NCBI GenBank assembly: GCA_016186945.1
Contig: JACPKR010000009.1
Coordinates: 1-10,107 of the forward strand
From: Deltaproteobacteria bacterium
GTDB taxonomy: Bacteria > Bdellovibrionota_B > Oligoflexia > Oligoflexales > Bog-1112
Reading direction: 5' to 3'
Length of the DNA stretch: 10,107 nt
Shown: positions 3,297 to 9,975 of the stretch, piece after piece
Numbering within the stretch: position 1 is the stretch's first letter
Layout: each line of letters starts with the position of its first letter
The notes under the pieces: model-generated
Told to the model about the DNA's origin: nothing
Databases searched by the model: none
What the model saw: the letters and a program-made list of their open reading frames with translations, nothing else
Program-made: the position numbers and the translations under genes

Positions 3297-3370
3297 TGGA
3301 GGCGCCGACCGGAGTCGAACCGGTGTTCACGGATTTGCAATCCGCTGCCTAGCCACTTGGCTACGGCGCC
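3297..3370 (-). tRNA. tRNA-Cys (anticodon GCA), CCA encoded
   Basis: On the minus strand all arms fold. The acceptor stem GGCGCCG pairs with CGGCGCC. The D arm is GCC-AAGTGGCTA-GGC in outline. The anticodon stem GCGGA/TCCGT (one G-U pair) encloses the loop TTGCAAA with GCA at 3338-3336. The T stem ACCGG/CCGGT encloses TTCGACT. The discriminator is U, as expected for Cys identity, and CCA is encoded at 3299-3297. The total is 74 bases. It stands alone between the accessory region and the conserved operon. No terminator is evident downstream of its 3' end. Confidence 0.97.
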
Positions 3371-3426
3371 CGCATGGAGGAGATAAGTTAATCAAAAAAA
3401 ATAGGGAAGGAAAGGACTAAGATTGT

Positions 3427-3444
3427 GGCAAGGAGGTGGTTTGG
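3427..3444 (+). repeat. Partial copy of the palindromic repeat family (leader segment)
   Basis: An 18-base segment (GGCAAGGAGGTGGTTTGG) is identical, in inverted orientation, to 7675-7692, the part of the pyrE-embedded element that precedes its main hairpin. Here the hairpin is missing and unrelated sequence (CTGACCGCCGGCG) follows, so this is a truncated copy. Confidence 0.6.
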
Positions 3445-3500
3445 CTGACCGCCGGCGTGAAGCTCACAAACATACTGTTACGACAAACGACTTTGAATCA

Positions 3501-3515
3501 GCCCTGCCCCAGGGC
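3501..3515. repeat. Small intergenic hairpin
   Basis: GCCCT, loop GCCCC, then AGGGC gives a 5-bp G+C-rich stem. No T-run follows, so it is not a terminator. It may be a decayed member of the neighbouring palindromic elements. Confidence 0.35.
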
Positions 3516-3582
3516 GTGTTCATATGAGAAAAGATTAAGTCGCAAGGAAGTTTGAGTTGTAAGTATGCTGTCTGGCCCGGTA

Positions 3583-3626
3583 GCAAGGAGGGGTTCAGGG
3601 GAAACTTCGCAGATGGTTCCCCTGAA
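3583..3626 (+). repeat. REP-like palindromic element, copy A
   Basis: It begins with the family leader GCAAGGAGG and continues into a hairpin with perfect 10-base arms TTCAGGGGAA (3594-3603) and TTCCCCTGAA (3617-3626) around a 13-base loop. The loop (ACTTCGCAGATGG) matches the loop of copies B and C (ACTGCGCAGCTGG) except at two positions, while the arms differ in sequence but pair perfectly. That is covariation, as expected when the structure is what is kept. Confidence 0.75.
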
Positions 3627-3658
3627 TTGGAATCGCCTAGAATTTAAATGAGACGGCC

Positions 3659-3726
3659 CTTGGAGGGAACTGCGCAGCTGGTTCCTCCAAGAAATCCGGG
3701 GGAGGCGACGCTTCACTCGCCCCCCC
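3659..3726 (+). repeat. REP-like two-hairpin element, copy B
   Basis: Hairpin 1 has arms CTTGGAGGGAAC (3659-3670) and GTTCCTCCAAG (3681-3691) with one bulged G and loop TGCGCAGCTG. Hairpin 2 pairs GGGGGAGGCGA (3698-3708) with TCGCCCCCCC (from 3717) around CGCTTCAC. Positions 3660-3689 match the reverse complement of 7649-7678 at 29 of 30 bases. The order of hairpin 1, a short linker and a G/C-rich hairpin 2 is the same as in the copy inside pyrE. Confidence 0.8.
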
Positions 3727-3851
3727 AAACCCCCCTCTCCCTATTTGCCCCAAGTGGCTTACGCATTACTCCTCCAAGATAAACTCACTGGAAACTTTAG
3801 GGGAGTCGGGTTAATCTTCTAAGAGTTGTTTTTTCCGGAAAGGACGCGGTT

Positions 3852-6370: not shown

Positions 6371-7042
6371 ATGCCCTCACGAGTGATTGTCGCTCTTGAT
6401 GAACCCGATTATGAGGAATGCTTGGCACTTGCCAGGCGTGTTGATCCCAAAAAATGTCGGGTCAAAGTGGGTAAGGCGCTTTTTACCCAGTGTGGGCCCA
6501 AAGTTATCGACAGTCTTCATAAGCTTGGTTTTGAAATTTTTTTGGACCTCAAAATCCATGACATACCCATGCAAACCGCAAAAACTTGCCGAGTTTGCGC
6601 AGACCTGGGTGTGTGGATGAGCAACGTTCATGCGTCGGGAGGTTTTGAGATGATGCGTGCTGCCAAGGAAGCCGTGCTGGCTTCGAAGAACCCGGGTATG
6701 AAACTGATTGCCGTCACTCTGCTCACAAGTTTGGGAGAAAACGACCTGCGCCGAGTTGAGATCCCTCTTTTGGCGGAAGACTACGTGTCTCGCATGGCTG
6801 CTCTCACTGCGGAAGCGGGATTGGATGGGGTCGTCTGTTCAGCAGGGGAAGCGTCTCGTCTACGACAGGAACGGGGACCTTCGTTTTGCCTTGTAACGCC
6901 GGGGATTCGCTTTGCAGAGGACCCTCGGAACGATCAGCGTCGCACTGCCACTCCTGAGGAAGCGCTGTGCAACGGCAGCGACTATCTTGTCGTCGGTCGC
7001 TCTTATTTCTCTTCAGTCGAAAGGTGGGAAGATGTCCGATAG
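6371..7042 (+). CDS. pyrF: Orotidine 5'-phosphate decarboxylase
   Basis: Converts OMP to UMP, the last step of de novo UMP synthesis, in the cytoplasm. The 223-residue TIM-barrel protein shows VIVALD (5-10), KVGK (32-35), the catalytic DLKIHDIP (59-66, with D59, K61 and D64), NVHASGG, and TPGIR (176-180). The ribosome binding site TGAGG overlaps the korA stop, 8 bases before the ATG, so the pair is coupled. The phosphate-binding end is unusual: the family reads GRPIT, here GRSYF (209-213, R210 kept), and only 13 residues follow the Arg against about 22 in E. coli PyrF. The gene end overlaps pyrE by 11 bases. All catalytic residues remain, so I expect an active enzyme. Confidence 0.95.
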   Translation: MPSRVIVALDEPDYEECLALARRVDPKKCRVKVGKALFTQCGPKVIDSLHKLGFEIFLDLKIHDIPMQTAKTCRVCADLGVWMSNVHASGGFEMMRAAKEAVLASKNPGMKLIAVTLLTSLGENDLRRVEIPLLAEDYVSRMAALTAEAGLDGVVCSAGEASRLRQERGPSFCLVTPGIRFAEDPRNDQRRTATPEEALCNGSDYLVVGRSYFSSVERWEDVR

Positions 7043-7727
7043 CACGAAGAAAGAATTTCTTAATTTCTGCGAAAGTCATGATGTCATCCGTTTTGGTGAT
7101 TTTACGTTGAAGTCGGGACGGAAAAGCTCTTACTTTTTCAACCTGGGAAAACTTCAAAGCGGCGCTGCCTGGGCAAAGCTGGGGAGTTTTTTCGCCGATG
7201 CAATTGTTCAATCTCGGATTACATACGATGTTCTTTTCGGCCCCGCTTACAAGGGGATCCCCATCGTGTTTAGTACGGCAATCGCACTTTTCGAAAAGCA
7301 CGGGATTGATGCTCCCGTCTGTTTCAATCGAAAGGAAGCGAAAGACCATGGAGAAGGAGGGGTCTTGATAGGCGCTCCTTTGAAAGGTCGAGTCTTGCTC
7401 GTCGACGATGTGATTACCGCTGGGACCGCCATCTACGAATCTGCGGAAACGATCCGTCGTCAAGGTGCCGCACTGACCGGAGTTCTAGTCGCTCTCGACA
7501 GAGAAGAGGAAGGGAGCAGGAGCCGGTTGCAAGCCTCGGAAGAGATTGCGAAGGAACTTAACGTAAGGGTTTTTAGCCTCGCAAGGAGATCTGAATTCCT
7601 CACAAAGGCTGTGCAGAGCCAATTGGGGTCGCTCCCCCAAGGAATTCCTGGAGGAACCAGCTGCGCAGTTTCCTCCAAACCACCTCCTTGCCCCTCGCTA
7701 AGATCCTTCAGGGAGGTAAGCTTGTGA
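7032..7727 (+). CDS. pyrE: Orotate phosphoribosyltransferase with repeat-derived C-terminus
   Basis: Joins orotate and PRPP to OMP, the substrate of PyrF. Taken from the ATG at 7032 (AAGGTGGG upstream), the product has 231 residues against 213 in E. coli. Core motifs are intact: [14 protein letters not shown] (24-37), [11 protein letters not shown] (68-78), [13 protein letters not shown] (98-110) with the flexible catalytic loop, and the PRPP motif [13 protein letters not shown] (121-133). Homology with E. coli PyrE fades after [10 protein letters not shown] (about 188-197). From L198 on, the codons lie inside a REP-like element, so the last family helix (E. coli AEHLAAVKAYREEFGV) is replaced by a Pro/Ser-rich tail ([20 protein letters not shown]...). 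The stop overlaps the upp start by 4 bases. The enzyme probably still works, since the catalytic parts are upstream. Confidence 0.95.
7623..7692 (-). repeat. REP-like two-hairpin element, copy C, inside the 3' end of pyrE
   Basis: In minus orientation the order is leader (18 bases shared with 3427-3444), hairpin 1 with arms TGGAGGAA (7649-7656) and TTCCTCCA (7670-7677), linker GGAATTCC, then hairpin 2 with TTGGGG and CCCCAA arms (7623-7640). The loop of hairpin 1 holds the palindrome CTGCGCAG, also present in copy B. The element begins exactly at codon 198 of pyrE and ends about 30 bases before the upp start, leaving the upp ribosome binding site (GGGAGGT) intact. Confidence 0.8.
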
Positions 7728-8356
7728 AAAATGTCCACGTCATCAATCACCCTCTCGTTCAGCATAAGTTGTCTTTAATGCGCATGAAAGACACAAGTAC
7801 AGGAAAATTTCGCACTCTCTTGCGAGAACTCAGCATCCTGCTGGGTTACGAGGTGACACGAAACATGCCTATGACAAGCGTCAGGATTGAAACTCCGCTC
7901 GGTTATGAGATGGACGCTCCTGTTTTGCAAAAAAAGAAAATGGCACTTATCCCCATTTTGCGAGCGGGAAACGGGATGCTGGAAGGCTTCTTGCAGCTGA
8001 TGCCCACCTGCAAGGTCGGTCACATAGGTTTGTACCGGGATGTTCAGACAGCAAGTGTGGTTGAGTACTACTTCAAAGTTCCCAAGGACATAAAGACTCG
8101 GCACGCTCTCGTCCTCGACCCGATGTTGGCAACTGGCTACTCGGCAGTAGCAGCAGTGTCTCGGTTGAAGGAAAAACAACCCAAGTCCATCGACCTTGTC
8201 TGCATCCTTGCCGCGCCGGAAGGCATCCGCTACCTTCAGGAACACCACCCTGATGTTACTGTCTATACAGCCGGTATTGATGAAGGGTTGGATGAGAAAA
8301 AATACATCATCCCAGGAATAGGTGACGCTGGCGACCGACTATATGGTACGCTATAA
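7724..8356 (+). CDS. upp: Uracil phosphoribosyltransferase
   Basis: Salvages uracil with PRPP to UMP, complementing the two preceding de novo enzymes. From the GTG at 7724 the protein has 210 residues, the usual length (E. coli 208). It starts in family style ([18 protein letters not shown]). Motifs include PILRAGNGM (77-85), GLYRD (102-106), the PRPP-binding [10 protein letters not shown] (131-140; many homologues have GG where this has GY) and the uracil-binding end [16 protein letters not shown] (194-209). The GTG is preferred over the in-frame ATG at 7688 because GGGAGGT lies 6 bases before it and the extra 12 residues match nothing in the family. It overlaps pyrE by GTGA. Confidence 0.95.
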
Positions 8357-9975
8357 TGAGCTGGGGCAATCGAAAGAGGTGTACGTTGAATGCAAGGATT
8401 GGATTTGTGCTCGTTTCCTTAGTCGCCCTTCTTGCCTGTAAACCTCGCTCCAAAGATTCAGCGCAAGTAGCGGCTGTAAACATAAAGGAAGGAGCAAGTC
8501 AGGAGCCAGCTACTCCTTGGTCTCTCTCGTTGAGTAGTGCGGATCTGGGGGATGTCACTGTTACCGCTCACAAAGAAACTATGTGCGAAAGCGAAGCGCT
8601 TCGCCTCGATGTGGGACAGTTTCAGCCCCAGACTCAATATTTTGAATTCGCTTTGTGTGATACCGAAACTTGTGAGTCAGAGCCTTCTCAAGAGGTATTC
8701 ACCTTTTCGAAGCCCTCCTGGGTGTTTCCCAATACAAGTTCAGTGTCCGAACCTATTGTGAAAGTTCGTAGTTGCGTCAGATCTTACAATGTTTCTCTCG
8801 GTTCAGCTTCCTGTTCCGATAAGTGGACCCAAGCGAAAGTTCTGGAAGCCGTTACAACGTCCCAAGATCTGAGGAAGGCACTTCTAGACGAGTTTCGCAT
8901 CAATAACGCTCTCGTCCAACAATGCCTTCAAGCGAGGAGTCGCATCGAATCTTTTCTGAAAGAGCAGCAGGATGAGCAAGCTTGGATAGAAAACTTGAGA
9001 AACTTCATGAGCATCGGCGTGGACCGATGCGCCGAGGCAATTCAGTCTGGTCTGCTCTCAGAAATCGACACCGAGATGGCTGGGGTACCGCCTGAACAGG
9101 CAGCTCCGGACACGTTAGGCTTAGCAGAAAGCGAAGAGAAGGATTCTTTGCCGGTTGCCATGGTAGCGGGAGGTGCCCTGGGAGGTGTTCTCGGTTTCTT
9201 TGCGATGGGGAGCTACGTGATGTACTCCAGGCAACAGAAGGGTGTGGAAGACCTAGCGAAACTGCAAGGGGTCGCTTCGCCTGTTTCTACAGCACCTACT
9301 ACTTTTGAGGAAAGAAGGGGGGCCTTAAGACAACTCGAAGAAGAAATAGCTGAAATCAAAAAGCGAACAACGATTTCATTCGAGGGAAAGACGTATCGGA
9401 AAGCCTTGTTCATCAATCCAGACCTAGAACGTGCAACCTTACAGGAAAACAAGAGCAAGATGGAGTGGACTCGGACGAGCTTGCAAAGGCAGGTACGCTT
9501 AGGGAATAAGACAATTCATCCAACGCGTTCGGATTTGACCTCCGTATATGGATTTTCTCCGGAACAAGTATCCAAACTTAGTTTTACGGACACAGTGCCT
9601 GTAAACCCGCGGATCCCTCTAGAAAGACGGTCGGTTGCGGTTTCTGTAGATGAATTGATAAAAGCTGGATACGAGCATATCCCTCAAATGGAGGAAGAGA
9701 TTAGGTTCATTGAAGGGAATGATTTTCTAAGGGTTAAGCAACAATGGGAACTTGTAAAAACAATGGAAGGTAAGAGACTTGCTGAGCTGGAAGCTCGCAG
9801 GCCAGCGCTTCTTGCTGAGATGATCGAAAACTTCGAGATCAATGGCAAAAAGATTGATCCCGAATTCTTGAGGTCAGCAGATCAGTGGTTTGGCAATCAG
9901 AAGCAGTATAAAGAACGCTTGGAGGAGGTTAAAAAAATCATGGGCACTCAGGATGTGAAACGTATCAGTAACTGA
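8356..9975 (+). CDS. Cys-rich lipoprotein with a central transmembrane segment and coiled-coil C-terminal part, unknown function
   Basis: 539 residues. The signal sequence ends in a lipobox, L-L-A-C with C28 (LVSLVALLACKP). Residues about 50-170 look like a beta-rich extracytoplasmic domain with many Cys (C77, CDTETC, SCVRS, SCSDKW), probably in disulfides. A helical stretch to about 250 follows, then an acidic linker and a Gly-rich transmembrane segment (about 266-287, VAMVAGGALGGVLGFFAMGSYVMY), flanked by SRQQK. The rest is charged and helical with coiled-coil character (LRQLEEEIAEIKKR, MEEEIRFIEG, LEARRPALLAEMIENFEI). Positive-inside logic puts the C-terminal 250 residues in the cytoplasm, so the protein would be held in the inner membrane twice. 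The ATG shares one base with the upp stop (TAATG). TTG at 8386, with AAAGAGG before it, is an alternative start that keeps the lipobox. I know no family for it. Confidence 0.75.
   Translation: MSWGNRKRCTLNARIGFVLVSLVALLACKPRSKDSAQVAAVNIKEGASQEPATPWSLSLSSADLGDVTVTAHKETMCESEALRLDVGQFQPQTQYFEFALCDTETCESEPSQEVFTFSKPSWVFPNTSSVSEPIVKVRSCVRSYNVSLGSASCSDKWTQAKVLEAVTTSQDLRKALLDEFRINNALVQQCLQARSRIESFLKEQQDEQAWIENLRNFMSIGVDRCAEAIQSGLLSEIDTEMAGVPPEQAAPDTLGLAESEEKDSLPVAMVAGGALGGVLGFFAMGSYVMYSRQQKGVEDLAKLQGVASPVSTAPTTFEERRGALRQLEEEIAEIKKRTTISFEGKTYRKALFINPDLERATLQENKSKMEWTRTSLQRQVRLGNKTIHPTRSDLTSVYGFSPEQVSKLSFTDTVPVNPRIPLERRSVAVSVDELIKAGYEHIPQMEEEIRFIEGNDFLRVKQQWELVKTMEGKRLAELEARRPALLAEMIENFEINGKKIDPEFLRSADQWFGNQKQYKERLEEVKKIMGTQDVKRISN

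Follow-up and report, generated by a model that had tools for sequence, protein, structure and literature searches.

In the genome studied here, the 3′ end of pyrE carries an in-frame copy of a REP-like palindromic repeat, predicted to be read as residues 199–221 of an orotate phosphoribosyltransferase (OPRTase) whose catalytic domain is complete. The gene lies in the window (the whole 10,107-nt stretch of DNA that was analysed) between pyrF and upp, and the features on which this reading is based are collected in Table 1. The explanation that we consider quite likely is that a non-autonomous REP-like palindrome, spread to about 400 genome sites, entered pyrE, probably itself a horizontal acquisition, near its 3′ end and left behind an in-frame 69-nt core copy, translated as the residues named above. 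The frame would survive because this copy is free of stop codons in every frame and its length is a multiple of three; translation would then continue to a GTGA overlap, thereby keeping pyrE and upp coupled. The catalytic domain would remain complete and the repeat-coded stretch would most likely be a disordered passenger, probably tolerated because the first de novo pyrimidine steps seem to have been lost in this lineage.

Table 1. Features of the window and repeat-coded extensions at other loci of the same genome
Feature	Position	Strand	Evidence
pyrF, orotidine 5′-phosphate decarboxylase, upstream of pyrE	6371..7042	+	PF00215, 182.5 bits
pyrE, orotate phosphoribosyltransferase, 231 aa, gammaproteobacterial type	7032..7727	+	TIGR00336, 1oro, tree
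Palindromic repeat, inner part, truncated at both ends	7625..7694	-	genome copies, copy alignment, left border test
REP core hairpin (TTGGAGGAA stem)	7648..7678	-	390 genome copies within 3 mismatches; fold
GTGG tetranucleotide, one base 5′ of the hairpin (REP orientation)	7680..7683	-	sequence; flank conservation
Last ten PyrE codons and stop, downstream of the element; holds the upp Shine-Dalgarno; possible remnant of the native helix	7695..7727	+	weak AYRxxYG likeness, low-confidence helix 223-230
upp, uracil phosphoribosyltransferase, GTG start overlapping the pyrE stop (GTGA)	7724..8356	+	PF14681, 248 bits; same-genus homologue
Second repeat copy, with G/C hairpin arm	3660..3735	-	sequence match
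Third repeat copy, diverged core hairpin (AACCATCTGCGAAGTT loop variant)	3596..3625	-	sequence match
Repeat-coded C-terminal extensions of HemA, Maf and a protein kinase	L066:1495-2967, L060:7905-8831, L057:5346-6770		

The repeat copy and its junction with upp

The sequence common to other copies of the repeat runs from GGGTCGC to TTGCCCC (7626–7694), a stretch of 69 nt or exactly 23 codons that lies in the pyrE frame and encodes residues 199–221; homology of the protein to other PyrE fades at residues 185–203, where the element begins. An earlier note on this DNA had set the edge of the element at codon 198 and regarded a 34-residue tail as repeat-coded. An edge near that codon was found, and 34 residues do follow residue 197; however, the shared sequence starts at 7625/7626, with codon 199, and the element codes for residues 199–221 only, the last ten (222–231) being encoded 3′ of it, outside the repeat. 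A longer element reaching to the left of 7625, judged by its likeness to the AAAGCCTGCCC..GAGC stretch of a long variant, was rejected as not significant (p 0.12). The inner 69 nt, a stretch picked because it lies inside pyrE, has no stop in all six frames (p 0.009), and the full repeat consensus has two of its six frames open, no more than expected by chance (p 0.31). Translation of the repeat-coded tail of PyrE is predicted from the open frame.

Contrary to the same note, which had the tail ending before the upp ribosome binding site, the pyrE ORF passes through the upp Shine-Dalgarno (GGGAGG; AGG GAG GTA, read as R-E-V) and ends with TGA, sharing four nucleotides (GTGA, from 7724) with upp. 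A start of upp at this position is backed by a same-genus homologue (73% identical) that begins at the matching methionine. The order pyrF-pyrE-upp was not found in the relatives checked and is thus a local arrangement. Directly 3′ of upp, positions 8356–9975 encode a protein of 539 aa that has a lipobox-like N-terminus (VALLAC) and matches no Pfam family. The window also holds, at 165–1390 on the minus strand, a protein with HTH and SocA/Panacea-like antitoxin domains beside a family-less 126-aa protein, a candidate toxin-antitoxin pair, and at 2338–2829 an HTH protein that weakly matches an addiction-module antidote family, with no intact partner seen upstream.

The encoded protein and its origin

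Judged by its sequence, the pyrE product is a real OPRTase, as it scores above the profile cut-off (182.5 bits against TIGR00336, cut-off 106.8) and keeps the conserved catalytic residues; the match to PDB 1oro reaches 222 bits, and all invariant columns of the OPRTase alignment, found at residues 9–171, are retained. An AlphaFold2 model has a good fold (mean pLDDT 86) in which the element-coded stretch is disordered, and it aligns to the gammaproteobacterial structures 1oro, 1lh0 and 1sto with Z of 27–28. Fold and conserved residues are common to these enzymes and the window protein, which differs from them in that the native C-terminal helix is displaced or lost and 23 repeat-coded residues are extra. 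Identity is 57% to gammaproteobacterial PyrE (best segment) versus about 40% to PyrE of its own order, and the tree sets the protein among gammaproteobacterial rows on a long end branch (1.06), with moderate support and a bootstrap that is not fully settled. The gene was probably acquired horizontally and is gammaproteobacterial in type. The same pyrE, which would show the empty site, was not found in any of the closely related genomes compared, a set with one genome per species.

A terminal helix near AxxAYRxxYG is present in most PyrE homologues checked, which came from the gammaproteobacteria and from the order and family of this bacterium, and none of them has an insert. This comparison of 3′ ends agrees at that level with the intrusion claimed by the earlier note, which had named homologues of the group naturally lacking the helix as a point that would speak against it. 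No such protein was seen among the own-order and gammaproteobacterial homologues checked, but the M. tuberculosis type of OPRTase stops near model residue 191 in the structure comparison and is naturally without this helix, so that the OPRTase fold can dispense with it in at least one other branch. As the invariant residues are kept and the fold tolerates absence of the helix in that branch, we infer that catalysis by the window PyrE is possible; its activity is a prediction.

Pyrimidine genes

In whole-genome searches, carB was not found in this genome (G000) or in two other genomes of the family, G005 and G007 (assemblies about 92% complete), and it is present, in full or in part, in five other family genomes. 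In this genome pyrB was likewise not found and pyrD is present. The three in which carB was not found are also the only family genomes with the repeat, and its expansion may be linked to the loss of de novo pyrimidine synthesis, although three cases are no proof and the coincidence may be due to chance. Since carB was not found in the three repeat-bearing genomes and pyrB was not found here, constraint on pyrE may be relaxed, which is a reasonable reading.

The repeat family in this and related genomes

The 2.66-Mb genome holds 390 copies of the 31-nt core TTGGAGGAACCAGCTGCGCAGTTTCCTCCAA with up to three mismatches (209 + 181 by strand), versus 0 copies of the reversed control; together with the 69 nt in frame, this upholds the earlier claim of a REP-like repeat read in the pyrE frame. 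The claim that the repeat occurs twice more upstream also held, as the copies at 3596–3625 and 3660–3690 match 7648–7678, and the longer pair 3660–3702/7636–7678 is 88% alike. A tRNA-Cys followed by these two copies occupies a single intergenic region (window 3297–3735). In an alignment of 121 copies, the complete unit is about 146 nt long, up to 169 in a variant, and consists of 25-bp inverted ends (GTAATGCGTAAGCCACTTGGGGCAA / TTGCCCCAAGTGGCTTACGCATTAC) around two hairpins, the core one and a G/C-rich one whose length varies; in the predicted fold of the consensus, a single long stem bears two internal arms (-89 to -103 kcal/mol). The core hairpin itself is a short imperfect palindrome with a 9-bp basal stem and a bulged upper part, and GTGG stands one base from it in nearly all copies of this genome, the flank being 97–99% conserved among the 121 copies. 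In 378 kb of stretches picked regardless of ORFs, to which targeted regions were added separately, 71 copies were counted, mostly lying between genes by a crude gene call. At one locus (L063 near 6000, G000:C20), more than 30 consecutive G come after a copy, possibly a slippage or assembly feature. No RAYT scored above the cut-off in this genome, 91% complete (best NF047646 score 25.5 versus 80), and only IS200/IS605-type Y1 matches were returned by the transposase search; the element has the anatomy of a REP and is classed as REP-like, but is not assigned to the RAYT-mobilised class.

Distribution of the repeat within the family is patchy, with 420 copies here, 120 in G007 and 102 in G005; none was found in the same-genus genome G001 (75% complete) or in G002, G003, G004 and G006, and a stricter 27-nt pattern had no match in the rest of the phylum sample. 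In copies from sister genera both arms of the stem have changed (GGGGG..CCCCC, GGAGA..TCTCC, GGTGG..CCACC) and the loop is nearly constant, which indicates that the hairpin itself is conserved; they read GGGG or similar where this genome has GTGG. G005 holds a sub-threshold RAYT candidate (74 bits), for which flanking by this repeat was not shown. G007 has a larger palindromic repeat family, whose members (L207–L210; about 520 bp, 79–84% alike between loci) are partly self-complementary and bear a core at each end.

Alternative explanations for the C-terminus

The terminal helix of the window PyrE is displaced or destroyed, and both a clean insertion and a replacement were considered. As a sub-case of the translated repeat, a clean in-frame insertion would have kept the native end, with the C-terminal helix lying beyond a 23-residue flexible insert and the native stop overlapping upp; this reading is tentative, with somewhat less than an even chance. 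It fits an insert length of 3n and a GTGA overlap that is a usual native operon junction, and a MAFFT alignment sets F226-R227 on the conserved YR of the helix. The score of the last ten residues against an AYRxxYG helix profile is reached by just 0.7–2% of controls, so that the helix which the earlier note calls lost may only be displaced. The score itself is nevertheless just below zero, the conserved YG after YR is missing from the tail, and the protein minus the insert would have about 208 aa, below the usual 213. When left untrimmed, the alignment of the model to the Salmonella structure 1sto does extend to residue 231 and AlphaFold2 predicts a helix at residues 223–230; however, that helix is of low confidence and neither result is an independent test of a remnant, because the input alignment of the predictor had already placed the tail there. 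The alternative, to which we give nearly an even chance, is that pyrE lost its native helix by deletion, or arrived without it, and became fused to a repeat that already stood upstream of upp, the last ten residues being former upp leader. This would suit a repeat copy lacking both ends, the roughly seven residues of the usual helix region that have no counterpart, the coincidence of the last codons with the upp Shine-Dalgarno region and the foreign type of pyrE, but both frame and stop would have to match fortuitously, and the weak helix likeness of the tail speaks against it.

Decay of pyrE to a pseudogene in a lineage without de novo pyrimidine synthesis, with the repeat as one sign of it, is rather unlikely. 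The failure to find carB and pyrB beside a present pyrD, the long end branch (1.06) and the lack of a PyrE match in the sister genome G005 point in this direction, against which stand an open frame, an intact pyrF and the intact state of all invariant OPRTase residues. An assembly artefact, in which unrelated loci were joined through the repeat and pyrE and upp are not true neighbours, is highly improbable. It could be suspected from some 400 repeat copies, a contig of just 10 kb and the absence of pyrE-upp adjacency from the relatives checked, but the shared stretch of 70 nt is below the usual read length, both borders are specific to the pyrE copy, the frame is open as far as a typical GTGA junction and pyrF-pyrE-upp makes operon sense. 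A conserved operon, considered as proof against a chimera, fails as such because pyrE is not next to upp in any relative checked.

Other genes reading into the repeat

Besides pyrE, four other ORFs in a wider, partly targeted sample run into the element at their 3′ end: hemA, maf, a protein kinase and a lipoprotein-like ORF. The first three have repeat-coded extensions that follow the end of the matched domain, and pyrE is the only one of the five where the element was seen to enter a conserved region. Taking all repeat-overlapping ORFs as genes was rejected, most being overcalled starts or short spurious ORFs. A more far-reaching proposal, which we consider doubtful, is that a REP family newly seen here repeatedly supplies C-termini (HemA, Maf, PyrE), that clean entry before the last helix of PyrE created a 23-residue linker with helix and upp coupling kept, and that its expansion accompanies loss of early de novo pyrimidine synthesis. 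Extensions beyond a domain (HemA, Maf, kinase) and intrusion into a conserved region (PyrE) form a series for study within one genome, with sister genera with and without the repeat available for comparison. They are also a caution to annotators of such genomes, where a repeat may code for a C-terminus.

Comparison with known systems

REPs inside genes and at gene ends have been described for several bacteria by Di Nocera et al. 2013 (PMC3733652), and in-frame translation within genes is known for Rickettsia palindromic elements, where it is more frequent than for REPs (PMC10969869, PMC3767692). The phenomenon is thus already known and the pyrE copy is a new instance of it; Rickettsia, the example in the earlier note, is not the only group concerned. 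What the pyrE copy adds is an example, from a bacterium other than Rickettsia, in which a conserved core enzyme contains protein read from a selfish palindrome.

With the GTAG/CGTC REPs (PMC3733652) the family has in common hundreds of short tagged hairpins that are mostly intergenic, some being in frame (20–30 residues) or at gene ends; it differs in its GTGG tag, which varies in sister genera, in that no RAYT was found in this genome, and in the larger unit, bounded by 25-bp inverted ends, in which its core often lies. REP-stem-loop composites at the long TIRs of tyrosine transposases in Pseudomonas (PMC3733652) likewise combine a REP and an unrelated stem-loop in a long inverted repeat with hundreds of copies, whereas no transposase gene was found adjoining the element here. 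Rickettsia palindromic elements are 100–150 bp palindromes translated in frame inside conserved enzymes (PMC10969869, PMC3767692), while copies here are nearly all intergenic and the coding ones lie at C-termini; the two are likened by behaviour, and no relation in sequence is claimed.
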